Assembly (NCBI GenBank): GCA_030427595.1
Contig: JAUIBX010000013.1
Coordinates: 1-34,441 of the forward strand
DNA from: Bacteriovoracia bacterium
GTDB taxonomy: Bacteria; Bdellovibrionota; Bacteriovoracia; Bacteriovoracales; Bacteriovoracaceae
Direction: 5' to 3'
Length of the DNA stretch: 34,441 nucleotides
In this document: positions 18,052 through 33,200 of the stretch, piece after piece
Numbering within the stretch: the stretch's first letter is position 1
Layout of the letters: the number at the start of each line of letters is the position of its first letter
Notes under the pieces: model-generated
What the model was told of the DNA's origin: nothing
Database searches by the model: none
Seen by the model: the letters and a program-made list of their open reading frames with translations, nothing else
Made by a program: the position numbers and the translations under genes

Positions 18052-18099
18052 TGAAAGGCTGATTGAAAGGGGGTTGGAGAAGAAAGAGAAAAAAAGAGT

Positions 18100-18396: not shown

Positions 18397-18407
18397 AGTC
18401 ATATAAG

Positions 18408-18480
18408 TCAGTTTCCACGAGGGAAAAAACTCAAGTTTTTCGGTGCCTAAGCCGATAACTTGCAAACAGAGGAATTTAGG
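18408..18480 (+). promoter_or_regulatory. Structured 5' leader of the Flp pilin mRNA
   Basis: Two stem-loops lie in the leader: TTTCC/GGGAAA around ACGA near 18411-18426, and CAAGTT (18432-18437) with AACTTG (18457-18462) enclosing TCGG/CCGA. AGGAG then precedes the start codon. It does not match the c-di-GMP riboswitch consensus as I know it. Confidence 0.5.
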
Positions 18481-18488
18481 AGCTGAGC

Positions 18489-18708: not shown

Positions 18709-18795
18709 ATTTAGCTCACTTAAACTTAAATATCGCTTAAAAAGGAAGTGACTTCCTTTCTTTTCCTATTTTTATTTCCTGCTAAAATCAAATAC

Positions 18796-19011
18796 ATGAA
18801 AATCTTTAATAACGTTGGACAGGCGACGATTGAGTATTTGCTTATTTTCTCTTTCATATCATTGATAGGTGTAGGCTTAGCGAATGCTATTGGTTCAAGC
18901 ATCGCCGGAAGTACCAAAAGTCTTGGCTGGGTTCTGACTCAAGAACTGACGACGGGTGTCTGCCGCTCTCAGTGCTTTTATAGTGATTACAAAAATGGGA
19001 TTACGGATTGA
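18796..19011 (+). CDS. Small class III prepilin-like protein (Tad locus)
   Basis: A 71-residue protein beginning MKIFNNVG, then QATIEYLLIFSFISLIG, which is the glycine-cleavage site, glutamate and hydrophobic helix of Flp/TadE-type prepilins. The C-terminus has two cysteines (CRSQC) that could form a disulfide. A longer reading from 18748 adds a second hydrophobic stretch ahead of the leader; the family pattern favours the ATG at 18796, though its ribosome site is weak. Likely a minor pilin. Its stop overlaps the TTG start of the peptidase gene. Confidence 0.8.
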   Translation: MKIFNNVGQATIEYLLIFSFISLIGVGLANAIGSSIAGSTKSLGWVLTQELTTGVCRSQCFYSDYKNGITD

Positions 19012-19520: not shown

Positions 19521-19819
19521 AAGGACAAAAAGGTCAATCTACTGTTGAGTATGTCCTTTTGTTGGCCGTAGTAGTCTCTCTCGTAACTTCTGTTTTCAAC
19601 TCACCAACTTTTCAAGAGTTTTTTGGTGAAGACTCCCAATTCTTTAATGCGATTGCAGAAAGAATGAGGCTTGATTATCGCTATTCAACTAAAGTCGACT
19701 CTGGAGACGATATAGGAAATGCAAGGCCTACGGCCCATCCTTCCTTTAGTCAGCCAGACGGCTCATTATCTCGATTTTTTGGTTTTCAAGCAGGAGGAAG
19801 TCCGTACCCACCACCATGA
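19475..19819 (+). CDS. Prepilin-like protein (Tad locus)
   Basis: A 114-residue protein. After a basic leader (KKPIHFLKGQKG) comes QSTVEYVLLLAVVVSLV, the class III prepilin motif. The mature region is polar and ends in a proline/glycine-rich tail (GGSPYPPP). It overlaps the 3' end of the peptidase gene, and its own stop overlaps the next start as ATGA, so translation is coupled. Both the ATG at 19475 and a GTG at 19490 are possible starts. Function as a minor pilin is inferred from motif and place. Confidence 0.8.
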   Translation: MDSFRVGNKKPIHFLKGQKGQSTVEYVLLLAVVVSLVTSVFNSPTFQEFFGEDSQFFNAIAERMRLDYRYSTKVDSGDDIGNARPTAHPSFSQPDGSLSRFFGFQAGGSPYPPP

Positions 19820-20346
19820 AAAAGTTAAAAGAAGAAAAAGGACAATCGACGATAGAATTTCTCGTGAGCTTCTCCATGGCGTTAGGCTTCGTATTTGCCT
19901 TTTTAAAAATCTCCATTGCTTACACTAACGGCTACCTTGTTCATTATGTGAACTTCTTATCTTCGCGTGCCTATATGGTTGGGGAAAGAGACTCTAACCA
20001 GCCTTCTGGCTCAGATGGTGCGGCCAAGGATCTCGCAGAAGCTGTTTTTGAGGGTTTTAATATTGGTGGCATTATTCCTACTTTTGATAGCAATCTCCAA
20101 ATAGAAGACCCCGAAAGTAACCTGGGGGGAACCAATCTCTATATTGGAACTCGTGTTGAGTACGAAGAATCGATAAATATACCAGGCTCAACAAAGAAGA
20201 TTCGCTTTCCTTTTGTTTCAGAGTCCTACTTAGGTATGGAGCCTACAAGAGCAGAGTGCAAGTTTAGAATTTGTGATGCCATGTCGCGAGTGGGTTCAGG
20301 GGCGAGTTGCCTAAAGCATTCAACTGTATCTGATAATGGATGTTAA
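19816..20346 (+). CDS. TadE-like pseudopilin
   Basis: A 176-residue protein with the short leader MKKLKEEKG followed by QSTIEFLVSFSMALGFVFAF, a TadE/TadF-type prepilin signature. The remaining 140 residues form a periplasmic domain with cysteines near the end (ECKFRICDAM, SCLKH, DNGC) that could make disulfides. The ATG overlaps the previous stop (ATGA). TadE-like proteins are minor pseudopilins needed for Tad pilus assembly. Confidence 0.82.
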   Translation: MKKLKEEKGQSTIEFLVSFSMALGFVFAFLKISIAYTNGYLVHYVNFLSSRAYMVGERDSNQPSGSDGAAKDLAEAVFEGFNIGGIIPTFDSNLQIEDPESNLGGTNLYIGTRVEYEESINIPGSTKKIRFPFVSESYLGMEPTRAECKFRICDAMSRVGSGASCLKHSTVSDNGC

Positions 20347-20887
20347 TTTGAAAAGCCTAAAAGAGATGAGAAAACATTTACATGAAGATGAAAGTGGTCA
20401 GGCGATTTTTGAGCTTCTCATCTTTATGCCCATTCTGATTTTCTTTTATACGATTATTTTTAATGTTGGAAATTCAATCAATGTATCAATTAATCAACAA
20501 AAGGTGACGAGACGCTATTTCTACCACCTGACAAAGCAAAATAGCTTTGTTCCTAACAATAGAGTTCTAGAAAATTTTAAAGCGGGCTTTACTCGTGCAG
20601 GCATCGCGATGGTTGGTTTTGCAGACCGACTAGATGGTGGTGGCACTGGTAGTCCTATTGGACCCTGCTTTAAGTTTAATTCTTTCTTTGCAAGCGATAA
20701 TGGTGAAACTTGTGAGGATCCCACAAGTGGAGAAAGACAGACCTCATTTGTCAGAGTTTATACTGCTTATGGTGTCTGTGGTGAAAGTTACTCCCTTCAG
20801 GGTAACCGTTGGTTTGTTTTTAATTCATCTGGTCCCGGAGTACCTGACCCCAAAAGTAAGTATCTCGCCTGTTCTGTCTCTAACTAG
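20336..20887 (+). CDS. TadE/TadF-like pseudopilin
   Basis: A 183-residue protein overlapping the previous gene by 11 nt. The leader reaches HEDESG, then QAIFELLIFMPILIFFYTII, where phenylalanine stands one residue before the glutamate; this is the TadE-type motif. The periplasmic part carries a glycine-rich stretch (DRLDGGGTGSP) and four cysteines (GPCFKF, ETCEDP, YGVCGES, LACSVSN). The gene is followed by an AAAGGGG/CCCCTTT hairpin at 20892-20914, which may lower expression of the downstream genes. Confidence 0.8.
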   Translation: MDVNLKSLKEMRKHLHEDESGQAIFELLIFMPILIFFYTIIFNVGNSINVSINQQKVTRRYFYHLTKQNSFVPNNRVLENFKAGFTRAGIAMVGFADRLDGGGTGSPIGPCFKFNSFFASDNGETCEDPTSGERQTSFVRVYTAYGVCGESYSLQGNRWFVFNSSGPGVPDPKSKYLACSVSN

Positions 20888-20973
20888 TCAAAAAGGGGAT
20901 AATTCTGCCCCTTTCTCTAATAAAATTGACCCTTTGCTAAAATTATAAGGAACAGGATTCTGAGGAGTTGAGT

Positions 20974-21789
20974 GTGAATACACGGGCGTTCACCCTGGCA
21001 TTGGTCATCGCAGGTATAGCCGTCTTTATGGTCTACACCTATATCGAAGATCAAAAAAGTGCCTTGATAAGTCGCTATGGAACGGAAGTTTCAGTGGTGG
21101 TAGCGAAAAGAGATATTAAAGAATTGGAGCTTCTTGATGACACCAAGGTGTCTATTAAAACAGTTCCTAAAAACTTTGCCTCACCGGGAAGTTTTTCAAC
21201 GATTAAAGGCGTTGAAAACACCATGGCAACTGTTCCTATCATGAAAGGGGAGCAGATTACTAAGCCTCGTGTAACCTACCCTGGTGCAAAAACGGGTCTT
21301 TCTCGTCAGGTGAGTATTGGTAAAAGGGCCATCGCTATTCAGATCACAGAGAGGCAAGCGGTTTCTAAGCTGATCAAGCCTGGAGATCGAGTCGATGTAC
21401 TCGCGCCTATAGACTTTTCTAATGGGCGAAAGGATATGCAAAAAACGAATACGATCCTTCAGGATGTTCTGGTTCTTTCGACTGGTAAGAGTATGACCAA
21501 TGCTATTCCTATTTACGGGGTCAAGACACCAAAAGAAATTCGTAAGATGAATGCACAAGTCTATGAAAGATATGACACCGTTACTTTGGAGCTTACTCCT
21601 TACGAGGCCCAGAAGTTAATCTTTCTATTGGCCTACTCGGGTCAAAGACCTTGGCTCGCCCTAAGAAATAATAATGACAAAAAACGTGTTCGTATCAAAT
21701 CGACTGATATTTTTGATGTTATCGGCGAAGAGGGACGAGCCGAAGCTAAGAAGTATTTTGATTCACAAAATAAAAGAAGAGGTCAATGA
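20974..21789 (+). CDS. cpaB: CpaB/RcpC pilus assembly protein
   Basis: CpaB/RcpC is a periplasmic, membrane-anchored protein of Tad pilus machines that works with the secretin. The roughly 271-residue product has one N-terminal helix (FTLALVIAGIAVFMVYTYI), a SAF-like domain (VSVVVAKRDIKELELLDDTK to about residue 105) and the CpaB core with RAIAIQITERQAVSKLIKPGDRVDVLAPID and LTPYEAQKLIFLLAYSG. TTG at 20968 sits directly against GAGGAG, so the GTG at 20974, six nt away, is the better start. The next gene overlaps as ATGA. Confidence 0.9.
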   Translation: MNTRAFTLALVIAGIAVFMVYTYIEDQKSALISRYGTEVSVVVAKRDIKELELLDDTKVSIKTVPKNFASPGSFSTIKGVENTMATVPIMKGEQITKPRVTYPGAKTGLSRQVSIGKRAIAIQITERQAVSKLIKPGDRVDVLAPIDFSNGRKDMQKTNTILQDVLVLSTGKSMTNAIPIYGVKTPKEIRKMNAQVYERYDTVTLELTPYEAQKLIFLLAYSGQRPWLALRNNNDKKRVRIKSTDIFDVIGEEGRAEAKKYFDSQNKRRGQ

Positions 21790-23285
21790 TACACAAATTT
21801 GCAGCTAGCCTTTTATTTTCACTCTTCATGATTCTTGCAATCATGTCTCAAGGCTTTGCCCAATCAAGCACAGTACAAGAAAAGCCTGTTGAAGTTATCT
21901 TAGGGATCGATAAGATTATCAAATTAGATTTTTCACCTAATCCACAGGTTCAAGTCGGTAATGAGTCATTGGTTCGAATTACAATGGTTCCTCAGAAAAG
22001 AGAAATTGTTTTGGCGGGCCAAAAGCCTGGCAAAACATCGGTTACATTAAGAAACAATGTCGGGGATGTGAAGGCCATATTTGTGGTTACAGTAACCGCA
22101 AATGATCAATCCCGTCTTGTAAAAGAATTGAAAGATTTTATTGGGGATGTTGAAGGTCTTGAGATTGGTATAAAGGGAGAAACTGTTTATGTTGGAGGAA
22201 ATATCATTGTTCCTAATGATATCGGTCGCGTTGTTAAGGTTTTAAATCAAGAAAAGTTTGGAGAGGTTCTTTTTCTTGTGGAACTTAGTCCCCAGACTGA
22301 GCGCTTAGTTGCCAGAAAAATGCAGGAAGAGATTCAAAAGAACCAGTTACCAGATGTCACAGTGCGAGTTGTTAATCATACATATTGGCTGGAGGGCATC
22401 GTAAACTCTGAAGGCAAGAAGAGAAGGGCTGAAGATATTGCAAAAGCCTTTTATCCCGATAAAATTGCTTCTTTGGCAGAAAGAACTGGGCAAGTAATTC
22501 AAGCTCAAAAGCCAGCTATTCAAAACTTTATCCAAGTAAATGAGAAGAGTCAGCCTCCACCTCTTGATAAACTCATAAAGGTAACGGCTCAGTTTGTTGA
22601 GCTTATTAAAGACTATTCCAAGACCTTTGGTTTTAAATGGACACCTCTCCTTTCAAATGGAGCAGGTGAAATCAATATTGGTCGGACAAATAATGGTGGT
22701 GTTACAACGAGATCAGAAGGCACTCTTTCAGGAACAATTTCTAATCTCTTTCCGAAGCTAAATTCAGCTAGGCAGGCGGGTTATGCCCGAGTCGTTCAAA
22801 GTGGAGTCATTGTCGTCAAAGATAAGAAAGATGGTCGAATCACAAAAGATGATACCCGTCGTTTTAGTTTAGGTTCTGGAGAGTTTGCCCAGGCCCAGCA
22901 GGCCCGAGCTCAATTTACCGTTGACGTGAGACCAGAGATTTTACAAGAAGAAAAGATTAACCTTACTTTAAATGTAACAGTCTCTTCAAATACAGGGGCA
23001 AACCCACCGGCAACCCAATCAAATGCCATAAAAACTGAGATCATTGTTAAATCCAAAGAAAGTGCTGTTGTTGGCGGGATTGTGATTAATAAGTCTTCTA
23101 CTGATTATGACAAACTCCCACCTGATGAGGTTCAAGGCTCAAGTCCACTATTTAACTTTGTTAGAGGTAAGGCCTTCTCCAATTCGAAATCTCAATTTGT
23201 TGTCTTTGTCACACCCGAGATTGTTGAATCAGCTAGTTCTGGAACAGAAGACATTAAGCGCAAGTTTCGTAGGAGAAGACGCTAA
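21786..23285 (+). CDS. cpaC: Outer-membrane secretin CpaC/RcpA
   Basis: The secretin forms the outer-membrane channel for the Tad pilus. The 499-residue product has a signal peptide (MIHKFAASLLFSLFMILAIM, cleavage after GFAQ-type end near 26), the pilus-formation N-terminal domain (VEVILGIDKIIKLDFSPNPQ to about residue 105), a BON-like region, and the secretin domain from about residue 270 (KLIKVTAQFVELIKDY) through NLTLNVTVSSNTG and SKESAVVGGIVINKSS to FVVFVTPEIVES. It ends in a run of arginines (KRKFRRRRR). No lipobox is seen. Start and stop overlap both neighbours, so the block is tightly coupled. Confidence 0.93.
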   Translation: MIHKFAASLLFSLFMILAIMSQGFAQSSTVQEKPVEVILGIDKIIKLDFSPNPQVQVGNESLVRITMVPQKREIVLAGQKPGKTSVTLRNNVGDVKAIFVVTVTANDQSRLVKELKDFIGDVEGLEIGIKGETVYVGGNIIVPNDIGRVVKVLNQEKFGEVLFLVELSPQTERLVARKMQEEIQKNQLPDVTVRVVNHTYWLEGIVNSEGKKRRAEDIAKAFYPDKIASLAERTGQVIQAQKPAIQNFIQVNEKSQPPPLDKLIKVTAQFVELIKDYSKTFGFKWTPLLSNGAGEINIGRTNNGGVTTRSEGTLSGTISNLFPKLNSARQAGYARVVQSGVIVVKDKKDGRITKDDTRRFSLGSGEFAQAQQARAQFTVDVRPEILQEEKINLTLNVTVSSNTGANPPATQSNAIKTEIIVKSKESAVVGGIVINKSSTDYDKLPPDEVQGSSPLFNFVRGKAFSNSKSQFVVFVTPEIVESASSGTEDIKRKFRRRRR

Positions 23286-25510
23286 TGGCCGGCCACGTAA
23301 TTACCATTATTGGTGGAAAAGGCGGGGTTGGTAAATCTCAGGTTGCTGCTAACCTGGCCTTTGCTCATGCAGCCGAAACACGTTCAAAGGTGATGCTTCT
23401 TGATTTTGACCAAAAGGCTTCAGGTGATCAAAACTTTATTACCGGTATAAAGTCTAAAAAGACTGTACGTGAACTTGCAGAATTTAATGGGGCCATTGAT
23501 CCTCGCTCGATCATGCCTTTTATTTCCGCCCACCCTGCGGGAGTTCAATACATTGGAATGCCTGATGATCCGGCGGCATCCGAGTCAATTAATTCCGATG
23601 GCATGGGCAAGTTCCTTAAGGCTGCCCCTAACCTTTTTCCTTTAACTGTCATCGATGGTGGAAGTGAACTAACGCCTTTGACATTGAAAGCTCTTGAGTA
23701 TTCCACAGCGATTTTCATTGTCGTCACTCCCGATATCCTTGCACTAAATCAGTCAAAAAGACTCTATAGCGAGCTTGTTACGATGCTCTTTCCTAAGGAC
23801 ATGATTCTTTTGATTGGAAATCAAGTTCAAAAAGGGCATCCCGTCACTCCTGAAGTGATGGGAAAGACAATCGGTAAGCCAGTATTTGCGACGATACCTA
23901 AAGACGATCAAATTTGTGTCACTGCCTTAAATCAGAAAAAACCCATCATGATTATTGGCAAAAACTCTGCTTTTGCTAAGGGAGCAACGGAATGTGTACG
24001 AAAACTTATTCAAAGAAACGTACTTAAGACTCTTGCTCGTCTCCAAAAGCCTTCTGATGTTCAAAAGAAAAGTTCCTCCTCTCTTGGAGAAGGGGAAGGC
24101 AAGGGGAACTCTTGGACTGATCTTAAGTCGAGGATTCATAGAACTCTTGTCGATGAGATGGATCTTAAAAAAACGGATAAAGATGATCCTAAAGCACAGG
24201 TTATTTTAAGAGAGCAAACAAAGAAACTCGTGGTTGAAATACTTAACAAAGAAGACACCAAGGGAATCCTTAACTCTCGCGAAGATATGAGCCAGATTGT
24301 TAAAGAGATCCTTGATGAAGCCCTCGGCCTAGGCCCCCTTGAAGATCTTCTTGCAGATAAAGAGTGCTCTGAAATTATGGTTATTGGGCCGGATAAAATT
24401 TATTATGAGCATGGCGGGAAAATTAAAAAATCTCCGATTACATTCACAAATGATCGCCAGGTTTTAAATGTAATTGAAAGAATTGTTGCTCCTATTGGCC
24501 GTCGAATTGATGAGAAGACTCCCTATGTGGATGCTCGTCTGCGAGATGGCTCTCGAGTTCACGCAATTATTCCTCCGTGTGCACTAGATGGTTGTACGAT
24601 TACCATTCGAAAATTCCCTGAAAACCGCCTCACTTATAAAGACCTCGTTAAGTTTGATTCTATGACTCAGAATATGGCCGACTTTTTGCGGATTGCTGTT
24701 GAGGCCCACAAGAATATTATTGTTTCTGGTGGTACTGGTTCTGGTAAGACGACCCTTATTAATGTCCTGGGAAGCTTTATTCCTGCCAACGAAAGGGTGA
24801 TTACTTGTGAAGACTCTGCCGAACTTGATCTTCCTCAAGATCACGTCGTGCGCCTTGAAACACGTCCACCGTCTCTCGAAGGTGATGGTGAGATTGATAT
24901 TCGCTGCCTTGTTAAGCAAACATTGAGAATGCGTCCCGATAGAATTGTGGTCGGGGAGTGTCGTGGAGGTGAAACTCTCGATATGCTTCAGGCCATGGGT
25001 ACAGGTCACGAAGGTTCAATGACAACAGTTCACTCCAATAATCCGCGTGAGTGTATCGGCCGTATTGAAACACTTGTTCAATATGCTGGTGCGGGCCTTG
25101 AGCCTCGAGCTATTCGTGAAATGATTTCTAACGCTGTTCACCTCATTATTCAGCAGTCTCGTCTTGATGATGGCTCTCGCCGAGTGACTTATATTACTGA
25201 GCTTGGAGGGATGCAAGGGGATGTGGTTATCCTTCAAGATATCTTTGTTTATAACCAACGAGGTTTTGATAAGAGTGGAAAGATTCAAGGTGAGTTTCAA
25301 GCAACGGGATTTATTCCCAAGTTTATCGAGATCCTTGAGAAGAAAGGTTACAACGTTCCAAGAGGACTTTTTAACAATACTCAGCAAGCGCCACCGAAAC
25401 CAGAAGGAGATAAACCTCCTGCACAAGACCAGGCGCCTGCAAATAAGGGGCAAGCTCCCCAACAAAAGAGACCTCAAGGTAAACCTGATCCTAAAAAGAG
25501 AAGAGCATAG
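23285..25510 (+). CDS. Fused TadZ/CpaE-like ATPase and TadA/CpaF motor ATPase
   Basis: One 741-residue chain joins two Tad proteins that are usually separate. Residues 1-250 are a MinD/ParA-like domain: ITIIGGKGGVGKSQVAANLA (deviant Walker A), MLLDFDQKASGDQN and FPLTVIDGGSELTPL, as in TadZ/CpaE, which places the machine in the cell. There is no receiver domain. After a charged linker (250-300) comes the TadA/CpaF secretion ATPase: LGPLEDLLADKECSEIMV, FRKFPENRLT-like region, VSGGTGSGKTTLINVLG (near 479-495), RMRPDRIVVGECRGGE and TGHEGSMTTVHSNNP. The tail from about 705 is proline/lysine/glutamine-rich. No frameshift joins the parts; the frame is open throughout. It overlaps the secretin stop by 1 nt. 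Confidence 0.93.
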   Translation: MAGHVITIIGGKGGVGKSQVAANLAFAHAAETRSKVMLLDFDQKASGDQNFITGIKSKKTVRELAEFNGAIDPRSIMPFISAHPAGVQYIGMPDDPAASESINSDGMGKFLKAAPNLFPLTVIDGGSELTPLTLKALEYSTAIFIVVTPDILALNQSKRLYSELVTMLFPKDMILLIGNQVQKGHPVTPEVMGKTIGKPVFATIPKDDQICVTALNQKKPIMIIGKNSAFAKGATECVRKLIQRNVLKTLARLQKPSDVQKKSSSSLGEGEGKGNSWTDLKSRIHRTLVDEMDLKKTDKDDPKAQVILREQTKKLVVEILNKEDTKGILNSREDMSQIVKEILDEALGLGPLEDLLADKECSEIMVIGPDKIYYEHGGKIKKSPITFTNDRQVLNVIERIVAPIGRRIDEKTPYVDARLRDGSRVHAIIPPCALDGCTITIRKFPENRLTYKDLVKFDSMTQNMADFLRIAVEAHKNIIVSGGTGSGKTTLINVLGSFIPANERVITCEDSAELDLPQDHVVRLETRPPSLEGDGEIDIRCLVKQTLRMRPDRIVVGECRGGETLDMLQAMGTGHEGSMTTVHSNNPRECIGRIETLVQYAGAGLEPRAIREMISNAVHLIIQQSRLDDGSRRVTYITELGGMQGDVVILQDIFVYNQRGFDKSGKIQGEFQATGFIPKFIEILEKKGYNVPRGLFNNTQQAPPKPEGDKPPAQDQAPANKGQAPQQKRPQGKPDPKKRRA

Positions 25511-25517
25511 GTAAAGT

Positions 25518-26411
25518 ATGTCTTACGTCATTACTACCATTTTAGGCTATAAAGGAATTGTCGCACTCACAGGCTTTTTGATTTTTGTTTTTTGTTTGCG
25601 TTACTCTACGGTTATTTTTGATTGGATTGAAAGACAAACACTCGGTACAAGAATTTACATTCAAGAAAAGTTAGAGTTGCTCTTTATTGATATACCACCA
25701 GATCGCCTCACAATGGGGCTTTTGATCTTTTCTCTCCTTCTCTCAACATTTTTCTTAGTTTTCTTTGGCATGTGGATTAGTTGGATACTAGGATTCATCA
25801 TCGGTATAGGTGTCGGTGTTCTATCATTTCGCGTACCAAAGTTTGTTGTGGATTATTTAGTCGAAAGAAGAATTAAGCAGTATCAGAATCAAATGGTTGA
25901 TGGTTTAACCCTTCTTGCAAACGGAATTCGTGCCGGCCTTTCAGTACCCCAAGCCTTGGGAATGGTTGTGAATGAACTTAATCCCCCGATCTCTCAAGAG
26001 TTCGGTATGATCTTACAGCAAAATAGAATTGGTGTGACTCTTGAGGAGTGTTTTGAAAACCTTGCGAAAAGGGTTCCGACTGAAGATAACGATATGTTTG
26101 TCTCTTCCATCAATATCCTAAGGGAGACAGGTGGTAACCTCGCTGAAGTTTTCGATACTATTGTGGCTGTTATTAGGGAAAGAGTCCGTCTTCAACAGAA
26201 AATTGATACCTATACAGCACAAGGGATGTTCCAAGGGGTGACGATTGCCTGTATGCCTTTTGCTATCGCGGGAATCTACGGCGCGTCTGATCCGAACTCA
26301 ATAAAATTACTTGTCACCAATCCCATTGGGATAATCCTCACTCTTGTAGCCTTAACCCTTGATTTTGTTGGGTTTATGGTCATTTTGAAGATCGTAAAGA
26401 TAAAGATTTAG
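25518..26411 (+). CDS. tadB: TadB inner-membrane platform protein
   Basis: A type II secretion F-domain protein of 297 residues, the inner-membrane platform of the Tad pilus. Membrane helices lie near residues 8-28, 64-84, 88-110, 243-262 and 270-292. Between them is the cytosolic F domain with MVDGLTLLANGIRAGLSVPQ, TLEECFENLAKRVPTEDN and NILRETGGNLAEVFDTI, all typical of TadB. The partner TadC usually follows immediately, but here an AT-rich hairpin and an unrelated Rhs gene follow. AGGT lies before the ATG. It is the last gene of the operon. Confidence 0.92.
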   Translation: MSYVITTILGYKGIVALTGFLIFVFCLRYSTVIFDWIERQTLGTRIYIQEKLELLFIDIPPDRLTMGLLIFSLLLSTFFLVFFGMWISWILGFIIGIGVGVLSFRVPKFVVDYLVERRIKQYQNQMVDGLTLLANGIRAGLSVPQALGMVVNELNPPISQEFGMILQQNRIGVTLEECFENLAKRVPTEDNDMFVSSINILRETGGNLAEVFDTIVAVIRERVRLQQKIDTYTAQGMFQGVTIACMPFAIAGIYGASDPNSIKLLVTNPIGIILTLVALTLDFVGFMVILKIVKIKI

Positions 26412-26414
26412 CCT

Positions 26415-26437
26415 AAAAAAAGCGCTAAAGCTTTTTT
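26415..26437 (+). terminator. Probable terminator of the Tad operon
   Basis: AAAAAAAGC, loop GCTAAA, GCTTTTTT follows the tadB stop by three nt. The stem is AT-rich, so it may be weak. Confidence 0.6.
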
Positions 26438-26498
26438 GCTATGGGGTCGAAAAGAGACAGAGAGATTTAATAAGTCTGTATGGAATAAAGGACTACTC

Positions 26499-28124
26499 AT
26501 GAGAGCTATTCGTTTACTGTTATTGTTTTTTCTAATGCCTGCTTTGGCATTTGCTGGTGTTAATCTTAAGAACGGGAATTTCTACATCTCGTACACAGAT
26601 ATCATTGTTCCTGGTGGAGGAATGGATCTGGAAATTACTCGTACCAACAACTCAAAATCGACCGAAAAAGGTTGGTTTGGATTTGGATGGGGTAGTGATT
26701 ACGAAACTTATGTAACTGTTTCTGCCGATGGTTCAGTTGTCGTTCATGAAAACGGCTCCGGCGCCTTGACACGATTCACACCGAAAACAGCAGTTGACGC
26801 GAATAAGGCCGCTGAAAATATTGTAGCTGCTATTCGTAAAAGAAGCTCTATCAATGACAAGTTTGCAAAGGATCTTCTTGAAAAGCTAAAGAATGATGCT
26901 GAACTCAGACAAGCCTATGCTCGTAAGTACAAAGTTTCTGCTAAGATTGCAGATGGGACTGAGCTCTTCTCAAATACACGTGGTCTACAAAAACTTATCA
27001 AAACGAAAAAAGGCTTCGTTCGTCACTTCAATGACGGAAAAAAAGAGTACTTTAACAAAGACGGAAATCTCTCTCAAATCGTTACTAAAAATGGATATAA
27101 AGTAGACCTTACTTACAAGAAGGGTAAGCTTGTTAGCATCAAAGACAGTCAAGCTAAGCAGTTATTCTTTGAGTGGTATCCAGATGGTAAAGTGAAGCAT
27201 ATTTACTCTGCTGGCGATAAGAAGACGTTTTACAAGTATCGTGGTGACGACCTGATTGAGTCAAAGGACGTTGCTGGAAATGTTTTCAAGTATGGTTATG
27301 ATGCCAACCACAACATGACGTCTGTTACTTATACCGACAATTCAAAGCTCAAAATTTCTTATACTCCAAAAACTCAGTTTGTTGAGGAAGTTGTTTCAAG
27401 AAATGGTGAGTCGACTAAGTATGAGTATGACTCAAATCCTAAGAATCCAGAATTTCACTACTGGACGACTGTAACTAAGAAGTCTCCAAGCGGGAAAGTT
27501 TCAAAGTCAAAGTATGAGTATGAGATTAAGACTCGTCCTGATGGCTCACAATACACTTATAGAATTGCTACTGAGATCAATGGTATTAACACAGAGACTA
27601 TTTACTCTGAGTGTTGTTCTCTACCTCTTAAAATCACAAGAGGGAACCACACAACAACTTTTGAGTACAATAAGAAAGGTCTTCTTACCAAGAAGTCTTC
27701 AACTAAGGGTGATATGGTTCAGCTTGCTTACCACCCTAAGTTCAACAAGATTACTAAGGTTACCAATAGTCGTGGGACTACGAAGTTTGACTACGATGAT
27801 CGCGCTAACCTAGTTAAGGCCACTAATGACAAAGGTAAATCCGTTATGCTCTTTTATGATCATAAAGGCCGTATCCAGAGAATGTACGACAAAGACCGCA
27901 AGACCAATAAAACTCGTGTTCTTAGCTTTAAGTACAATGCTCTCGGTAAGCCTGTAGAAATCAAAATGAAGGGTGTTGGCAAGATCAACGTAGCCTATGA
28001 CAACTACGGTGAAATAAAGAAGGTTGAGTCAAAGCAAGGTCATAAAATGGCCCTACAAGTTACTCAAGCCTTCCAAAGCCTTCTGGCCATCGTGAAGCCT
28101 GCAGGTGTTAATCTGAATATGTAA
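26499..28124 (+). CDS. Short secreted Rhs/YD-repeat protein
   Basis: A 541-residue protein with a signal peptide (MRAIRLLLLFFLMPALAFAG). The N-terminus (TDIIVPGGGMDLEITRTNNS, then GWFGFGWGSDYE) is the DUF6531-like start of Rhs proteins, and the rest holds many YD-type strands: YFNKDGNLSQIVTKNGYKVD, YKYRGDDLIESKDVAGNV, YGYDANHNMTSVTY, FDYDDRANLVKATNDKGKS and FKYNALGKPVE. It ends without a variable toxin tip or the PxxxxDPxG core boundary, so it is not an ordinary polymorphic toxin. A single CC pair occurs in YSECCSLPLK. AAGGA precedes the ATG at 26499; an ORF start 21 codons upstream is rejected. It may be a surface or envelope protein. Confidence 0.82.
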   Translation: MRAIRLLLLFFLMPALAFAGVNLKNGNFYISYTDIIVPGGGMDLEITRTNNSKSTEKGWFGFGWGSDYETYVTVSADGSVVVHENGSGALTRFTPKTAVDANKAAENIVAAIRKRSSINDKFAKDLLEKLKNDAELRQAYARKYKVSAKIADGTELFSNTRGLQKLIKTKKGFVRHFNDGKKEYFNKDGNLSQIVTKNGYKVDLTYKKGKLVSIKDSQAKQLFFEWYPDGKVKHIYSAGDKKTFYKYRGDDLIESKDVAGNVFKYGYDANHNMTSVTYTDNSKLKISYTPKTQFVEEVVSRNGESTKYEYDSNPKNPEFHYWTTVTKKSPSGKVSKSKYEYEIKTRPDGSQYTYRIATEINGINTETIYSECCSLPLKITRGNHTTTFEYNKKGLLTKKSSTKGDMVQLAYHPKFNKITKVTNSRGTTKFDYDDRANLVKATNDKGKSVMLFYDHKGRIQRMYDKDRKTNKTRVLSFKYNALGKPVEIKMKGVGKINVAYDNYGEIKKVESKQGHKMALQVTQAFQSLLAIVKPAGVNLNM

Positions 28125-28143
28125 TGCCTACTTTTGGTGGCAG

Positions 28144-28167
28144 GGTCCTGAACCTAAATTCAGGACC
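28144..28167 (+). terminator. Hairpin after the Rhs gene
   Basis: GGTCCTGAA, loop CCTAAA, TTCAGGACC. The following bases (TTAGTTCTAAGG) lack a U-tract, so read-through into the small peptide gene at 28243 is possible. Confidence 0.6.
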
Positions 28168-28242
28168 TTAGTTCTAAGGTTAGGTTATTTTAGGACTTAG
28201 AGAGAAAATAGATACACAAACACAAAAATGTGGAGCGAAAAA

Positions 28243-28455
28243 ATGAAAACTTTAAAAACCCTTATGTTGATGTTGATGTTGGTATCGAGTGCCTCTGTTA
28301 TAGCTACAGAAGCTGTAGCAGGCGGTGAGAGTTTGACTGCTGAAGATTGTATGGAAGAAGTTGTGGATTCGGACAGAGGTGCTGCTGATGTCACCCTGGA
28401 GGATGAACAGCCCACGAACAATCCACATCCCCCTGCAGCTGTTGATGCAGAATAA
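28243..28455 (+). CDS. Small secreted acidic single-cysteine peptide (P1)
   Basis: A 70-residue product. MKTLKTLMLMLMLVSSASVI plus a few residues is a signal peptide with cleavage near TEAVA. The mature part is acidic (EDCMEEVVDSDRGAADVTLE) with one cysteine at position 36 and a proline-rich end (NNPHPPAAVDAE). It resembles the peptides at 28889 and 32202 in size, signal, acidity and single cysteine. GGAG lies seven nt before the ATG at 28243, so a start five codons earlier is rejected. No sigma-54 site is seen upstream, unlike the other two; it may be read with the Rhs gene. A strong terminator follows. Function unknown. Confidence 0.75.
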   Translation: MKTLKTLMLMLMLVSSASVIATEAVAGGESLTAEDCMEEVVDSDRGAADVTLEDEQPTNNPHPPAAVDAE

Positions 28456-28492
28456 GTTTTAAATAGATCAAAATATATTTCTTTTTTTAGAG

Positions 28493-28520
28493 GCCCACTC
28501 GAAAGAGTGGGCTTTTTTTT
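28493..28520 (+). terminator. Terminator after peptide P1
   Basis: GCCCACTC, tetraloop GAAA, GAGTGGGC followed by eight T residues: a textbook intrinsic terminator. Confidence 0.95.
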
Positions 28521-28531
28521 GGGGGGGTCCA

Positions 28532-28577
28532 TTTTGAGTCGCTTAGTTGGCGTTGCCAACTGGCGCTGGTTGAGGGG
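28532..28577 (-). repeat. AGCGAC-family hairpin element, copy 2
   Basis: On the plus strand TTTTGAGTCGCTT, then stem AGTTGGC, loop GTT, GCCAACT, then GGCGCTGGTTG. The flanks match copy 3 (50 bp further on) and, in reverse complement, copy 1 at 15621, while the stems differ and still pair perfectly. Confidence 0.8.
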
Positions 28578-28581
28578 TACC

Positions 28582-28625
28582 TTTTGGCGTCGCTTACTCC
28601 CTGCGGGAGTGTCGCTGGTTGGGTG
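28582..28625 (-). repeat. AGCGAC-family hairpin element, copy 3
   Basis: On the plus strand TTTTGGCGTCGCTT, stem ACTCCC, loop TGC, GGGAGT, then GTCGCTGGTTG. Period to copy 2 is 50 bp. Same flanks, different but fully complementary stem. Confidence 0.8.
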
Positions 28626-28641
28626 AATTCATGGCATTTGA

Positions 28642-28745
28642 GAACGCTTCAGCGGCCGCGAGCTGCGCTCTAGCCGCTTTTCGCTAGTCACATACATCTC
28701 TGCGCCATTTGACCTGCCAGTGGCAGGTCATGGGCGCAGGATGTG
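28642..28745 (+). repeat. Bipartite inverted-repeat element A upstream of peptide P2
   Basis: First part: GCTTC, stem AGCGGC/GCCGCT with an inner AGC/GCT, then TTCGCTAGTCACA. Second part: ACATC...GATGT enclosing CTGCGCC/GGCGCAG and the dyad CCTGCCAGTGGCAGG. A second copy with changed but still pairing stems lies at 31976. It ends 74 nt before a sigma-54 promoter, so it may be an activator-binding region. I do not recognise it. Confidence 0.8.
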
Positions 28746-28818
28746 ATCAAATTTTTTACACCTCTAAAATTTATACACTTTTTCCTATAGTTAACTCGTT
28801 GAAACCTCGCTACTTTTT

Positions 28819-28849
28819 TTGGCACATCTCTTGCTTCTATATAAAGCAA
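28819..28849 (+). promoter_or_regulatory. Sigma-54 promoter of peptide P2, with overlapping dyad
   Basis: TTGGCACATCTCTTGCTT has the -24 GG and -12 GC elements of sigma-54 promoters with the required spacing (TGGCAC-N5-TTGC). TTGCTT (28831-28836) and AAGCAA (28844-28849) form an inverted repeat across the -12 and start region. Confidence 0.85.
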
Positions 28850-28888
28850 TAGAAATGAGAGAGAACCCGAATTTTTGGGAGGGATGAA

Positions 28889-29077
28889 ATGAAAAAACTA
28901 CTTTTTGTAATGATGGCAATTTTGCTCGTAAACATGTCTTACGCAGCTGAGCTTGGTGAAGACCAAAAAGGTGACTGTATTAACAGTCCTAACCACTCAC
29001 GTGGCCAAGAGGTTCTAGTTGATGACGCTCAAACGTCTACTCAGCAAGAGTCTGATAAAGGCGTTGTAAGCGAATAA
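28889..29077 (+). CDS. Small secreted acidic single-cysteine peptide (P2)
   Basis: A 62-residue product. MKKLLFVMMAILLVNMSYAA is a clear signal peptide; cleavage after AYA/AA would release about 42 residues that are acidic and polar (ELGEDQKGDCINS, ending QQESDKGVVSE) with one cysteine at position 30. It is not a lipobox cysteine. GGGAGGG lies close to the ATG; an overlapping ATG AAA TGA just upstream might tune initiation. Transcription should start from the sigma-54 promoter at 28819, so expression is expected to depend on an enhancer-binding activator. A strong terminator follows, making this a one-gene unit. Function unknown; secreted signal, envelope or antimicrobial peptide are all open. 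Confidence 0.8.
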   Translation: MKKLLFVMMAILLVNMSYAAELGEDQKGDCINSPNHSRGQEVLVDDAQTSTQQESDKGVVSE

Positions 29078-29112
29078 TTTAAGTGCAAAAATCTAATAAT
29101 CTTTTCTGTTTG

Positions 29113-29141
29113 AGTCCCACCAAATGGTGGGACTTTTTTTT
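29113..29141 (+). terminator. Terminator after peptide P2
   Basis: AGTCCCACC, loop AAAT, GGTGGGACT followed by a long T run. Confidence 0.95.
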
Positions 29142-29185
29142 ATTGGCCGGTTAGAATAAGAGAGTCTTAAATTTAGGAGCTTCTC

Positions 29186-30559
29186 TTGCAATTTATCGAA
29201 GATAAACACCAAAGATTAAAATTGGCTTTTGGCCAACGAATCAATCATTCCTATCAGACCCGTTGTCATAACCTTTTAAAATTAAAGTCTCTTATTGTAG
29301 ATAATGAAGATGCTATTTTAGAGGCACTGAATAAAGACCTTGGTAAGTCTCAGTTTGAGGGCGTTATTAGCGAGACCCTCTTCCTTATTAATGAAATCGA
29401 TTTCACTCTTAAGCGGCTTAAGAAGTGGATGAAGAAAAGACGGGTCTCAACCCCTTTTCTTCAGTTTCCGGCACGCTCCTATGTTATCCCTGAGCCATTA
29501 GGGACAGTTCTCATTATTAGTCCCTGGAATTATCCTTTTCAGTTACTTATTTCGCCTTTAATCGGTGCTCTCGCTGCTGGTAATACGGCCATGCTAAAGC
29601 CCTCAGAAGTGGCTCCTAACGTCTCAAGTCTCGTCTCTGAGCTTATCCCCAAGTACTTTTCAGAGGATCTTATAGCAGTGGTTGAGGGGGGAATTCCTGA
29701 AACTCAGGCTATCTTAGACCTTCCTTTTCAGCACATTTTTTATACAGGCAACGGCACTGTCGGCCGCATTGTCATGGAAAAGGCGTCCAAGCATTTGTGC
29801 CCTGTAACCCTTGAATTAGGGGGAAAGAGTCCATGCTATGTGGATGAAGATAATGATTTAGAAGTTGTCGCTAGACGCATTGTTTGGGGAAAGTTTTTTA
29901 ATGCCGGACAAACCTGTGTGGCTCCAGACTACATTCTTTCAACAGAGAGGGTGAGGGATATTCTCATCAAGAATATGGAAAAGGCCCTTAATCAATTCTT
30001 CCCTAAAGGGGTTAAGGCCAGCTCTGATTATGGAAGAATTATTAATGAACATCATTTTGAGCGCCTTGAAAGCTATATTGACCCAAGTGAAATTGCTTTA
30101 GGGGGTGAGAGCGATCGCTCCAGCCTTTTTATTAGTCCAACAATTTTAAAGTCAACAGGGGGGAGCCCCTCTATGAAAGAGGAAATTTTTGGACCAGTTC
30201 TTCCCATGTTAACGATAAACTCGCAAAAGGAAGCGATAGAGTTTATTAAACAAAGGCCACATCCCCTGGCGGCCTATGCTTTCTCACGAAACTCAAGGAT
30301 TCTTGATGAGTTTGAAAATGAGGTGAGCTCAGGTGGCATGTGCTTAAATGATAGTTTGGTCCATTTGAGCAGTGAGACCCTGCCCTTTGGGGGAGTTGGT
30401 GAGAGTGGTATGGGCTCTTACCATGGAAAACGTTCTTTTGAGATTTTTAGCCATTATAAGTCGGTAATGAGAAGAGGCTTTTTTGACCTGCCTGTTCGCT
30501 ATCCTCCCTATGAAGGAAAATTGGGCCTAATCCGAAAGCTTTTGAGCTTTCTCGGCTAA
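29186..30559 (+). CDS. Aldehyde dehydrogenase (ALDH3-like)
   Basis: An NAD(P)-dependent aldehyde dehydrogenase of 457 residues, oxidising aldehydes to acids. The N-terminus and length fit the class 3 group acting on fatty or aromatic aldehydes. Motifs: PLGTVLIISPWNYPFQLL (near 100-117), AGNTAMLKPSEVAPN, VTLELGGKSPCYVDED (catalytic Glu near 210), FFNAGQTCVAPDYIL (catalytic Cys near 243) and EEIFGPVLPML. The start is TTG at 29186 with AGGAG six nt upstream; no better ATG exists before the conserved region. Exact substrate is unknown. It lies alone between two peptide units. Confidence 0.94.
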   Translation: MQFIEDKHQRLKLAFGQRINHSYQTRCHNLLKLKSLIVDNEDAILEALNKDLGKSQFEGVISETLFLINEIDFTLKRLKKWMKKRRVSTPFLQFPARSYVIPEPLGTVLIISPWNYPFQLLISPLIGALAAGNTAMLKPSEVAPNVSSLVSELIPKYFSEDLIAVVEGGIPETQAILDLPFQHIFYTGNGTVGRIVMEKASKHLCPVTLELGGKSPCYVDEDNDLEVVARRIVWGKFFNAGQTCVAPDYILSTERVRDILIKNMEKALNQFFPKGVKASSDYGRIINEHHFERLESYIDPSEIALGGESDRSSLFISPTILKSTGGSPSMKEEIFGPVLPMLTINSQKEAIEFIKQRPHPLAAYAFSRNSRILDEFENEVSSGGMCLNDSLVHLSSETLPFGGVGESGMGSYHGKRSFEIFSHYKSVMRRGFFDLPVRYPPYEGKLGLIRKLLSFLG

Positions 30560-30664
30560 CTTCATGCTCTAAGTACCTAATTTTTTTATACTTTTATATT
30601 AGCCCCAAAACTCTATCATTCGACCGTCAAAGAAGTATCGAAAGTCTAGCAATCGGAGGTCGAT

Positions 30665-31909
30665 ATGAAAGCTGTAAGAATATTATTTATTTTGAAGTTA
30701 ATTGTCCTGTCTATGAGTGTCTCTGCCCAGAGACGTTTTGTGAAATACTCATGTGAGTTTAGTCAGACGACTTGTACTTATGGAGGTGGGAGTATTGCCT
30801 GGCAATGGAGGTGTGCTGGAAATTATGGACAGGAAACATCACCAGTTATTCCAGGCGATTTTTTCGCCTTAAATCAAGGTCAGATAATTAAGACATCTAG
30901 CTATAGCGGTCGATATGATAATCAAGGAGAAGATGAATGTACCTGTACTCATAGCTATACCTGCACACCGAAGTCTTTTAGAAGACCTCAAACCCGCTCT
31001 TGTTTTTTAAATGGTTCAAAGTATTCATGTCAAAAAGATGTAGCCTATGGGAGTCATCCTTCTCAAAAGCTAGATATTTGGCGCCCTCAAAACTACAATT
31101 CGAGCAGAGGGCTTGTGGTTTATATTCACGGTGGTGGTTTTTACCAGGGAGATAAGTCTTCTGCCTATCAAAGATTTTCTACAGTTAATCCGAAGAAAAT
31201 TTTAGACTCGGGCTTTGCTTTTGCTTCAATTAATTACAGATTGTCTGATGAGGCTCATTTCGGCGCTGGTGAAAGTATCCCTCCTGCTATGGCCGATTCG
31301 GCCAAGGCCATTCAATTTCTGAGATCAAAGGCTAAGTCATTTGGCTTTAATAAGAGAAATGTTGCTCTAACGGGAGGCTCAGCTGGAGGTGCGATAAGCC
31401 TATGGCTTGCCTTTCATGATGATCTTTCAAAACCAGGTGTTTCAGGCTTAGCGGGCGAGTCTACAAGAGTCAGTTGTGCTGCGGTTTTTGAAGCTCAGAC
31501 CACTTTAAATATGGGGGAAATTAGAGACCTTTTGGGCGCGGATGGATATGAACAGAAAAAAGGACTACCTGCCTTCTTTGGAATAAATGTTGAAAATTAC
31601 AACAGGAACCCAAGGCTTTTTGATAGAGTTTTGGCAGCAAGATATAAAAAGGCCAGCCCCATAAGCCATATTTCTAGTGATGATAAGGTTAAAGTCTTAA
31701 TGACTTATAATAGAGACCTCAATGAGGGTGATATTCATTCGCCGGAACTAGGGATTTATCTTGCACAGGGGAGCCCTCATTCTGTTAAAAGGAAGTACAA
31801 AAGAAAGTCGCTCGAGCAACTTGGGATTTCTCATGAAGTTCATTTTGGCCAGCATCAGTTTTTCAATAAATTTAAGATCAATGACTTCTTGATTAATCGT
31901 TGTTTCTAA
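30665..31909 (+). CDS. Secreted alpha/beta hydrolase (esterase/lipase-like)
   Basis: A 414-residue protein with a signal peptide ending SVSAQ near residue 21. About 100 residues of cysteine-rich sequence follow (CEFSQTTC, WRCAG, DECTCTHSYTCTP, RSCFLNG, YSCQKD), probably disulfide-linked outside the cytoplasm. The catalytic domain starts near 125 (LDIWRPQNYN) and has the oxyanion hole VVYIHGGGFYQGD (about 151-163), the nucleophile elbow TGGSAGGAISLW (about 235-246), and a late histidine in VHFGQHQFFN. This matches the hormone-sensitive-lipase/BD-FAE side of the fold. GGAGG lies five nt before the ATG. Substrate unknown; an extracellular role such as prey or envelope degradation is possible. 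Confidence 0.85.
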   Translation: MKAVRILFILKLIVLSMSVSAQRRFVKYSCEFSQTTCTYGGGSIAWQWRCAGNYGQETSPVIPGDFFALNQGQIIKTSSYSGRYDNQGEDECTCTHSYTCTPKSFRRPQTRSCFLNGSKYSCQKDVAYGSHPSQKLDIWRPQNYNSSRGLVVYIHGGGFYQGDKSSAYQRFSTVNPKKILDSGFAFASINYRLSDEAHFGAGESIPPAMADSAKAIQFLRSKAKSFGFNKRNVALTGGSAGGAISLWLAFHDDLSKPGVSGLAGESTRVSCAAVFEAQTTLNMGEIRDLLGADGYEQKKGLPAFFGINVENYNRNPRLFDRVLAARYKKASPISHISSDDKVKVLMTYNRDLNEGDIHSPELGIYLAQGSPHSVKRKYKRKSLEQLGISHEVHFGQHQFFNKFKINDFLINRCF

Positions 31910-31931
31910 TTATACCAGTATAAAAAAAATG

Positions 31932-31955
31932 GCCTCCTTTTAAGGAGGCTTTTTT
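31932..31955 (+). terminator. Terminator after the secreted hydrolase gene
   Basis: GCCTCCTT/AAGGAGGC with TT between the arms, followed by TTTTTT. Confidence 0.93.
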
Positions 31956-31975
31956 GTACCCGGAAAAAATAGGTG

Positions 31976-32080
31976 GAATGCTTCGGCCGTACAGCGGGCC
32001 TTGCCCTAGCAGGCCTTCGCAAGTCACAGACATCTTCGCGTCACTTGGCCTGCCACTGGCAGGCCGTGCCGCGAGATGTG
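31976..32080 (+). repeat. Bipartite inverted-repeat element B upstream of peptide P3
   Basis: Homologous to element A at 28642. Shared: GAATGCTTC (A: GAACGCTTC), TTCGCAAGTCACAGACATCT (A: TTCGCTAGTCACATACATCT), CCTGCCACTGGCAGG and GATGTG. The first stem is GGCC/GGCC around GGGC/GCCC instead of AGCGGC/GCCGCT, and the second has CGCG/CGCG instead of CTGCGCC/GGCGCAG. It ends 73 nt before the sigma-54 site. Confidence 0.8.
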
Positions 32081-32152
32081 TATAAACCTTAGTCAGGGTG
32101 GGAAAATTATACAGTTGGAGCCATCTAAGTTGCTGTTATTACATGGTTTATT

Positions 32153-32182
32153 TTGGCACATCCCTTGCTTATATATAAGCAA
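32153..32182 (+). promoter_or_regulatory. Sigma-54 promoter of peptide P3, with overlapping palindrome
   Basis: TTGGCACATCCCTTGCTT differs from the P2 promoter at one base. TTGCTTATATATAAGCAA (32165-32182) is a perfect 18-bp palindrome across the -12 and start region. Confidence 0.87.
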
Positions 32183-32201
32183 AACAGAAAAGGAGAGAGA
32201 C

Positions 32202-32405
32202 ATGAAAAACTTACTACTAATTGGATTACTACTACTAGGAACAACTACTGCATCTTTTGCCTCTGAAAGCGAGCAAACTTTAGGAGAGCAAGCTTCAGCA
32301 AATTGTGTTGAAACAATTCAAAACAATCGTAATGGAACAGCTAATGATGTTGATGCTGTGGCCGCTGAAGAAGAAGATACTACAAGAGCAGCTCGTGTAG
32401 AGTAA
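32202..32405 (+). CDS. Small secreted acidic single-cysteine peptide (P3)
   Basis: A 67-residue product. MKNLLLIGLLLLGTTTASFA is a signal peptide; the mature part of about 47 residues is acidic (SESEQTLGEQ, then DAVAAEEEDTTRAARVE) with one cysteine at position 35 (SANCVETI). It matches P1 and P2 in size, composition and cysteine placement. AGGAG lies seven nt before the ATG; an ORF extension to 32076 runs through the promoter and is rejected. The sigma-54 promoter at 32153 and a bidirectional terminator make it a one-gene unit. Function unknown. Confidence 0.8.
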   Translation: MKNLLLIGLLLLGTTTASFASESEQTLGEQASANCVETIQNNRNGTANDVDAVAAEEEDTTRAARVE

Positions 32406-32431
32406 TTAAAGTCAAAATTAGATCTAAAAAA

Positions 32432-32457
32432 AGCCACCTTTAAGGTGGCTTTTTTTA
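32432..32457. terminator. Bidirectional terminator between peptide P3 and the minus-strand gene
   Basis: AGCCACCTT/AAGGTGGCT with A7 before and T7 after works on both strands. It ends 3 nt inside the stop region of the minus-strand gene at 32455. Confidence 0.92.
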
Positions 32458-32802
32458 TTCCTTTTGAAGAAGTATTTTTTTGAGCATATCCCTTTCTTCA
32501 GCTGTGTATTGCTCACCGTGATCATGTTCAATCGACTTCAGCATCTCCTTCTTATCTATAGAAGAATTTTGGAGAGATATTTCGTCTTGTTGAGGAACAG
32601 TATTGTTAAAGAGTTTCTGACTGAAGTTTTTTGATTTCTTTACCCCATCTATTAAGACATCCCTTGAGCCCATGAAAACCTCATCAGTAATGGGCTTGGC
32701 CCATTTGTTAAGATAGTAAAAGAGAGGCTTTTTTTGAACAGGAATACTAAGAAGTAAGAAGCTCACGCAAAAGGTAATTAGAAATTTAAGCATGGAAAAC
32801 AT
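32455..32802 (-). CDS. Hypothetical membrane-anchored or secreted protein
   Basis: I do not recognise this 115-residue protein. The N-terminus MFSMLKFLITFCVSFLLLSI is a signal peptide or anchor. The rest is polar and helical, with a lysine/serine-rich middle (GVKKSKNFSQKLFNN) and an acidic end (HDHGEQYTAEERDMLKK). AAGGA lies six nt before the ATG at 32802, 2 nt after the stop of the CheY-like gene, so the two are coupled. Confidence 0.72.
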   Translation of the reverse strand: MFSMLKFLITFCVSFLLLSIPVQKKPLFYYLNKWAKPITDEVFMGSRDVLIDGVKKSKNFSQKLFNNTVPQQDEISLQNSSIDKKEMLKSIEHDHGEQYTAEERDMLKKILLQKE

Positions 32803-32804
32803 GT

Positions 32805-33200
32805 TTAATCCTTTTCTCTTTCAGCAACTATTTTATCAACGGCTTTAATCAGATCTTCAGGTAAAAAGGGTTTGGGTAAGAAATCTAGAGCACCACTACT
32901 GATCGATTCTATAACGATAGATTCCATGTTGAGAGAGGACACCATGATAATGGAGGCGCCCATAGACTTTTCATTGAGAAGCTTGGCCATCTCTAAACCA
33001 GATCTATCTGGCATGATGACATCAATAATGAAAACATTAGCACCAGATGTGGCGCCTAAGGTGATTCCCTCTTCTGCTGAACCAGCAGAGCCTACTACGT
33101 TGTAGCCTTCATTTTCGAGGATTTCGACAATAGACTTGCGTGAAAACTCAGAGTCATCAACGACAGCAATACGAATATCTTGATTCTTTTGGTTGGACAT
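32805..33200 (-). CDS. CheY-like single-domain response regulator
   Basis: A 131-residue stand-alone receiver domain. It keeps the acidic pocket D15/D16 (VVDDSEFS), the phospho-acceptor D60 (FIIDVIMPDRSG), a serine at 88-89 (MVSSL) and K110 (LPKPF). With no output domain it should act by protein contact, as CheY does at the flagellar motor or in another relay. AAGGA precedes the ATG. It lies 74 nt downstream of lon on the same strand. No histidine kinase is in the window. Confidence 0.93.
   Translation of the reverse strand: MSNQKNQDIRIAVVDDSEFSRKSIVEILENEGYNVVGSAGSAEEGITLGATSGANVFIIDVIMPDRSGLEMAKLLNEKSMGASIIMVSSLNMESIVIESISSGALDFLPKPFLPEDLIKAVDKIVAEREKD

Follow-up and report, generated by a model that had tools for sequence, protein, structure and literature searches.

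How does Bdellovibrio choose between obligate predation and prey-free growth, and is Bd0108, its known switch protein, described as unique to that genus, the only microprotein of the switch locus? The choice has been at issue since the host-interaction (hit) locus was found. The second question is raised by a 34,441-nucleotide (nt) stretch of DNA from a Bacteriovoracia bacterium (contig JAUIBX010000013.1 of assembly GCA_030427595.1; hereafter the window), in which two genes for small secreted peptides, here called B and C, each follow a predicted sigma-54 promoter. In Bacteriovoracaceae, the window corresponds to the hit locus, and we consider it probable that B and C are sigma-54-dependent, activator-controlled members of this locus in predatory Bdellovibrionota, each forming a separate short unit. 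Switch-locus microproteins are now seen across Bacteriovoracaceae and several other Bdellovibrionota families. A predicted sigma-54/activator layer is added to a locus known only for control by FliA, and a reported small RNA (sRNA), induced in bd0108 mutants, is re-read as the messenger of an exported peptide.

Peptide genes and their predicted sigma-54 promoters

The gene order in the window is a tight adherence (TAD) pilus cluster, a secreted Bd0109-like YD-repeat protein, and peptides A, B, and C. The peptide genes and their putative control elements, including a candidate upstream activating sequence (UAS) for B and for C, are as follows.

28243..28455, + strand: peptide A, 70 residues, with a signal peptide; position of Bd0108 (synteny); no sigma-54 site
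28490..28520, + strand: terminator-like hairpin after peptide A (sequence)
28761..28777, + strand: candidate UAS of B, CCTCTAAAATTTATACA, 13/16 to TGTCTAAANTTTAGACA, 41 nt upstream of the -24 element
28792..28802, + strand: IHF-like TAACTCGTTGA between the UAS and promoter of B (sequence; weak)
28819..28835, + strand: sigma-54 -24/-12 element of B, TTGGCACATCTCTTGCT, 12/12
28889..29077, + strand: peptide B, 62 residues, secreted, one cysteine (ribosome-binding site and signal peptide)
29110..29142, + strand: terminator of B (sequence)
32079..32095, + strand: candidate UAS of C, TGTATAAACCTTAGTCA, 13/16 to TGTCTAAANTTTAGACA, 57 nt upstream of the -24 element
32153..32169, + strand: sigma-54 -24/-12 element of C, TTGGCACATCCCTTGCT, 12/12
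32202..32405, + strand: peptide C, 67 residues, secreted, one cysteine (ribosome-binding site and signal peptide)
32425..32457, + strand: terminator of C, a perfect 16-nt inverted repeat

Sites were scored out of 12 against the strict pattern TTGGCAC-N5-TTGCW, which occurs seven times in the 3.82-Mb genome of this bacterium, versus once for the reversed pattern. A first-pass annotation of the window had described near-identical sigma-54 promoters before two single-gene units encoding signal-peptide proteins of 62 and 67 residues. Its gene coordinates, promoter sequences, and -24/-12 spacing were right, and both elements fall within a 31-nt stretch of 90% identity. It had also named a third relative at 28243 without such a promoter; upstream of that gene, peptide A, the best score is indeed 7/12. 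Genes A, B, and C each carry a ribosome-binding site and a signal peptide, and each is followed by a hairpin and a T-run. RpoN is encoded in 182/192 genomes, including the genome of the window (G000), where eight genes for strong activator domains (PF00158) were counted.

The arrangement was then surveyed in 77 non-redundant loci. Secreted peptides preceded by a sigma-54 site were present in 76 of them (two in 63 loci and one in 13; 139 B/C peptides in total), and peptide A was found 3' of the YD-repeat gene in nearly all 77. The sites of the relatives score 9-12/12, mostly 10-12; scores of at least 11/12 were reached by 76/227 in the locus versus 0/98 for control open reading frames (ORFs), none of which exceeded 10. 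The controls were small ORFs with a signal-like start, taken from the same contigs. Comparison among relatives thus indicates that the B and C units, with their -24/-12 elements, upstream palindrome, and often a terminator, are conserved across Bacteriovoracaceae.

The palindrome, TGTCTAAANTTTAGACA, matching in at least 12 of its 16 positions, is carried by 109/139 B/C promoters versus 2.15 in shuffles, its median end lying 58 nt before the -24 element. It was found 5' of peptide A in 1/75 cases, and the A gene of the window has neither the palindrome nor a sigma-54 site. We regard TGTCTAAANTTTAGACA as a candidate UAS, which strengthens the activator dependence assumed in the first-pass annotation. 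An IHF-like core is present in 27/139 B/C promoters versus 5 in shuffles, a weak signal. The palindrome and a sigma-54 site together also precede at least five other genes of the same genome, encoding secreted proteins or a lipoprotein (L003, L005, L006, L007, L275). This shared pair therefore indicates that exported proteins form a regulon, probably under one activator; TGTCTAAANTTTAGACA itself matched no known activator.

Another palindrome, the REP-like CCTGCCANTGGCAGG, lies about 90 nt before both promoters. It was rejected as an enhancer: it is dispersed in the genome (about a dozen sites, versus none with the reversed control), and relatives lack it at this position. A 106-nt repeat, 73% identical, at 28642-28745 and 31976-32080, bears CCTGCCANTGGCAGG and is a REP-like dispersed element. 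The two palindrome copies, found by genome scan, are:

28710..28730, no strand assigned: REP-like palindrome TGACCTGCCAGTGGCAGGTCA, dispersed, outside the promoter
32046..32066, no strand assigned: second copy of the REP-like palindrome

Elsewhere in the genome (L004, C88:4532, positions 1500-1620), a strict sigma-54 site precedes approximately 90 nt that lack a convincing ORF and end in a hairpin and T-run, with no UAS palindrome upstream. This element is possibly a sigma-54-dependent sRNA.

Constraint and co-variation of the peptides

The mature part contains exactly one cysteine in 139/139 B/C peptides, as compared to 26/98 control ORFs, and cysteine was no criterion in choosing the peptides. 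A ribosome-binding site and signal peptide are always present. The pooled pN/pS ratio is 0.41-0.42 for B and C, and pairwise comparisons within genera span 0.41-0.50, well below 1; we therefore conclude that B and C are real genes under purifying selection. Hence the single cysteine noted in the first-pass annotation holds throughout the family, and its coding-constraint check and search of relatives came out in its favor, the promoter-peptide arrangement recurring throughout Bacteriovoracaceae and beyond. The acidic mature part that it had also listed is not a family feature (mean charge -0.9, sd 4.0). The common architecture it described stands, and its statement that the peptides share little other sequence needs a correction: a C-terminal tail and the weak motif GE-x4-6-C ... 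R are common to A, B, and C of the window. In B and C generally the motif is GE, 4-6 residues, C, and then a basic residue 8-9 positions on. Peptide A has three to five cysteines in many relatives and one in the window. The residues ILVFWMY make up 16% of the B/C mature part, a composition that fits intrinsic disorder. No family in Pfam or NCBIfam matched the peptides above cut-off. The traits of Flp (type IVb) pilins, a class III leader and the hydrophobic Flp motif, are missing from B and C, which have a Sec-type signal peptide and a polar mature part.

In their mature parts, the peptides of one genome resemble each other more than do those of different genomes. Around the cysteine, the identity of B and C cores from the same genome is 0.50 versus a null of 0.23 (maximum 0.30). 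Over the last six residues it is 0.44 for B and C, versus 0.15 in shuffled genomes, and 0.33 for A and B, versus 0.14. Signal peptides of B and C differ little from expectation (0.34 versus a null of 0.31). These comparisons show that B and C, joined by A at the C-terminus, evolve together within a genome in their mature part only, a likeness that suggests one shared partner for both. It is best accounted for by selection that acts on the exported part to fit a single partner, to which gene conversion limited to the mature part could add. Recent whole-gene duplication is unlikely, since signal peptides are no closer within than between genomes and codon sharing (353 versus 273 expected) is in modest excess.

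Locus neighborhood and the Bdellovibrio counterpart

The first two of the genes and sites around the peptides described here lie 5' of B; the aldehyde dehydrogenase and the esterase lie between B and C.

18431..18458, + strand: FliA-like promoter 5' of the first flp-like gene in the TAD cluster, TCAAG-N16-CCGATA (match to the published FliA consensus)
26499..28124, + strand: YD-repeat (RHS) protein, secreted, 541 residues, Bd0109-like, without a toxin tip (Pfam RHS_repeat, DUF6531; alignment)
29186..30559, + strand: aldehyde dehydrogenase, between B and C in many marine relatives (Pfam Aldedh; synteny)
30665..31909, + strand: BD-FAE-type esterase, extra in this genome (B-C spacing within the genus is too short to hold it)

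Genes for a prepilin peptidase-like protein, RcpC, a secretin, a TadA-like ATPase, and T2SSF proteins are located 5' of the YD-repeat gene. Approximately 30 genera of the family keep TadC, YD-repeat, A, B, (aldehyde dehydrogenase), C, a small ORF, a receiver (REC) protein, and Lon in this order, and synteny extends to 80 named contigs, including Halobacteriovorax marinus and Bacteriovorax spp., by which the family is placed as Bacteriovoracaceae sensu lato. Since the aldehyde dehydrogenase is absent in many relatives and the esterase is extra, both probably stand outside the system. The FliA-like promoter is the best match within 17000-33000 to the consensus published for Bdellovibrio (PMC3627812); control of TAD by FliA has been published for Bdellovibrio and proposed for other Bdellovibrio and like organisms (PMC5430801). 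A 6S RNA gene (Rfam RF00013, 60.7 bits) lies just upstream of the TAD cluster at 18093-18278 on the minus strand.

A search with a YD-repeat alignment profile yielded a strong homologue in each of 30 genomes from other families of the phylum; the profile also matches at the Bd0109 position in genome G175. The AlphaFold model of the YD-repeat protein is of poor confidence (pLDDT 69.5) and still matches Rhs/Tc shells in the Protein Data Bank, a likeness used for fold class only; as a predicted structure it would agree with the encapsulation proposed in PMC4267844. In one large group of YD-repeat proteins from marine Bacteriovoracaceae, every member carries an ECC motif with adjacent cysteines; a freshwater group and the Bdellovibrio lineages lack it. 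A disulfide link between this pair and the peptide cysteine was considered and rejected, as the pair is present in 59/108 YD-repeat proteins and Bdellovibrio has other cysteines.

Genome G175 is that of Bdellovibrio bacteriovorus strain HD100, or nearly so: the reverse transcription-PCR (RT-PCR) primers that PMC3818213 gives for the sRNA, bd0108, and bd0109 match it with 0 mismatches, and a tailed complementation primer with one. Its small secreted protein after the YD-repeat gene has 101 residues, and D24, C56, C59, and Q101 are the published residues of Bd0108 (PMC3818213, PMC4267844). At +510 lies a 66-residue secreted peptide with one cysteine, preceded by CTGGCACACGCGATGCA. Capeness et al. 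2013 (PMC3818213) described for HD100 a small non-coding RNA at 96436-96822 (refined to 96455-96716), up-regulated in all bd0108 mutants. The 66-codon ORF occupies 96483-96683 and both sRNA RT-PCR primers fall inside it; the sigma-54 site is at 96743-96759, and the transcript start predicted from it, approximately 96732, agrees with the reported 96716 within about 16 nt. In comparisons with close Bdellovibrio genomes, synonymous to non-synonymous changes in the ORF were 12:1 and 15:3. Sequence combined with the published data shows the HD100 equivalent ORF inside a transcript induced when bd0108 is mutated. Going by this location and the synonymous excess, we take the RNA reported as non-coding to be a messenger. 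The ORF is probably the hypothetical gene BD_RS00505 mentioned in PMC5941755. Sigma-54 is unmentioned in the available literature passages on bd0103-bd0108, and a literature search for Bd0107 found nothing.

Most members of f6 have, like G175, a small secreted protein at approximately +15 after the YD-repeat gene, and equivalents of the 66-residue peptide with GG-N10-GC elements are present in f11, f18, and some f8 genomes. Small secreted, sigma-54-preceded peptides of very different sequence were also seen after the YD-repeat gene at loci of other Bdellovibrionota families (L248, L270-L274, L245).

Proposed circuit, its rivals, and known systems

Locus layout, separate predicted sigma-54 units, purifying selection with one cysteine, and co-evolution of the mature parts are the components of our reading that comparative analysis has shown. 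Given the position of the genes in the hit locus, next to those for TAD and the YD-repeat protein, a predation/lifestyle programme is favored among those suggested in the first-pass annotation, whereas envelope stress found no support here. Peptide A is best read as the positional counterpart of Bd0108 in the TAD/YD-repeat operon. This operon would run with the attack phase via FliA. B and C may be disordered ligands that bind, in the periplasm, the partner to which A also binds, most probably the YD-repeat protein. Upon a change in the A/YD-repeat/pilus state, a bacterial enhancer-binding protein would switch B and C on, and they would replace or compete with A, resetting pilus and prey-dependence signaling. 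As a tentative generalization, for which we would claim no more than that it is possible, the predatory lifestyle switch of Bdellovibrionota could be a peptide-exchange circuit: the FliA operon makes a YD-repeat receptor and a resident ligand, A/Bd0108; when this ligand is lost or displaced, the change is perceived through the envelope and a sigma-54 enhancer-binding protein becomes active; the alternative ligands B and C are then made and take over the receptor; and the "non-coding RNA" of 2013 is the feedback arm.

Several observations weigh against sigma-54-dependent control of B and C as hit-locus members. The upstream palindrome in Bdellovibrio, GTCT-N7-AGAC, is separated from the -24 element by only 8-9 nt, a shorter distance than enhancers usually have, and genus-61 genomes of f12 have RpoN and a Bd0108-like small ORF but lack a sigma-54 peptide within 1.5 kb. 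The strand of the HD100 sRNA is not stated in the available portion of PMC3818213. When mature parts were aligned with hhalign, the similarity of A to Bd0108 (P=0.03, probability 1.6%) and of B/C to A (P=0.05) was not significant, nor was the profile comparison of B/C with the Bdellovibrio peptide; common ancestry therefore rests on position, promoter, and short motifs. In phylogenetic profiles used to seek the activator, an L155-type protein is found in every lineage, and an L154-type response regulator, strong in f1, f6, f11, f18, and f8, reaches no more than paralogue level in f12, which lacks the sigma-54 peptide. With genome G152 as an exception, the fit of the latter is loose, and it is a lead only.

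Three other explanations were weighed. Sigma-54 often controls the bacterial exterior, and the enhancer and sigma-54 pair precedes secreted-protein and lipoprotein genes elsewhere in the genome, so B and C might belong to a general envelope regulon unrelated to the neighboring hit locus. This is unlikely: in virtually all genomes they are found next to the YD-repeat gene, whether or not an aldehyde dehydrogenase gene lies between them, and their mature ends co-vary mutually and with A of the hit operon, whereas the other regulon proteins lack those C-termini; the HD100 transcript, moreover, responds to bd0108 mutation in the published work. A general regulon and a hit-specific task for B and C can both be true. 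Action outside the cell, as secreted signals or anti-prey peptides, would suit the secretion signal, the short length, and a co-diversification resembling that of ligand and receptor. We judge it improbable, as no outer-membrane export signal was recognized in B and C, the low hydrophobic content is unlike that of membrane-active peptides, and no processing or immunity gene lies beside them.

Sigma-54 also drives sRNAs in other bacteria, and the short monocistronic units with terminators would be in keeping with regulatory sRNAs whose ORFs are incidental, the reading given to the HD100 transcript in 2013. PMC3818213 indeed calls it a small non-coding RNA. That reading is very improbable in view of the strong synonymous excess in Bacteriovoracaceae B/C and in the HD100 ORF, the invariant single cysteine, and the unfailing ribosome-binding site and signal peptide; a dual-function RNA would be compatible with the coding evidence. 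Sigma-54-controlled hit-locus peptides remain our preferred reading.

As in textbook sigma-54 promoters, those of B and C have the form TGGCA[CT]-N5-NTGC[AT], with a palindrome approximately 58 nt upstream and an IHF-like core in a minority; they differ in that TGTCTAAANTTTAGACA is without a known-activator match. With Bd0108 (PMC3818213, PMC4267844) the peptides share small size, secretion, and a place beside a Bd0109-like YD-repeat protein and TAD genes, as well as a polar character with few hydrophobic residues and a GE motif after the signal peptide. Peptide A has the same position as Bd0108 and often a CxxC-like motif. In contrast, B and C have one cysteine, their own terminator, and a predicted sigma-54 promoter with an upstream palindrome, whereas bd0108 shares a transcript with bd0109 and lacks a sigma-54 site. 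As the single cysteine (139/139) leaves no CxxC disulfide pair and profile similarity is not significant, we have not filed B and C in the Bd0108 family; they share the locus of Bd0108 and probably act like it. In Halobacteriovorax marinus SJ, two small signal-peptide proteins, BMS_0183 and BMS_0184, without significant homology to Bd0108, have been reported beside the Bd0109 homologue BMS_0182 (PMC4267844). Their positions fit A and B, and the available literature describes no promoter, family, or regulation for the pair. The HD100 sRNA of PMC3818213 lies in the same place with an ORF inside the transcript; published as non-coding, it is read here as the mRNA of a sigma-54-driven single-cysteine peptide.

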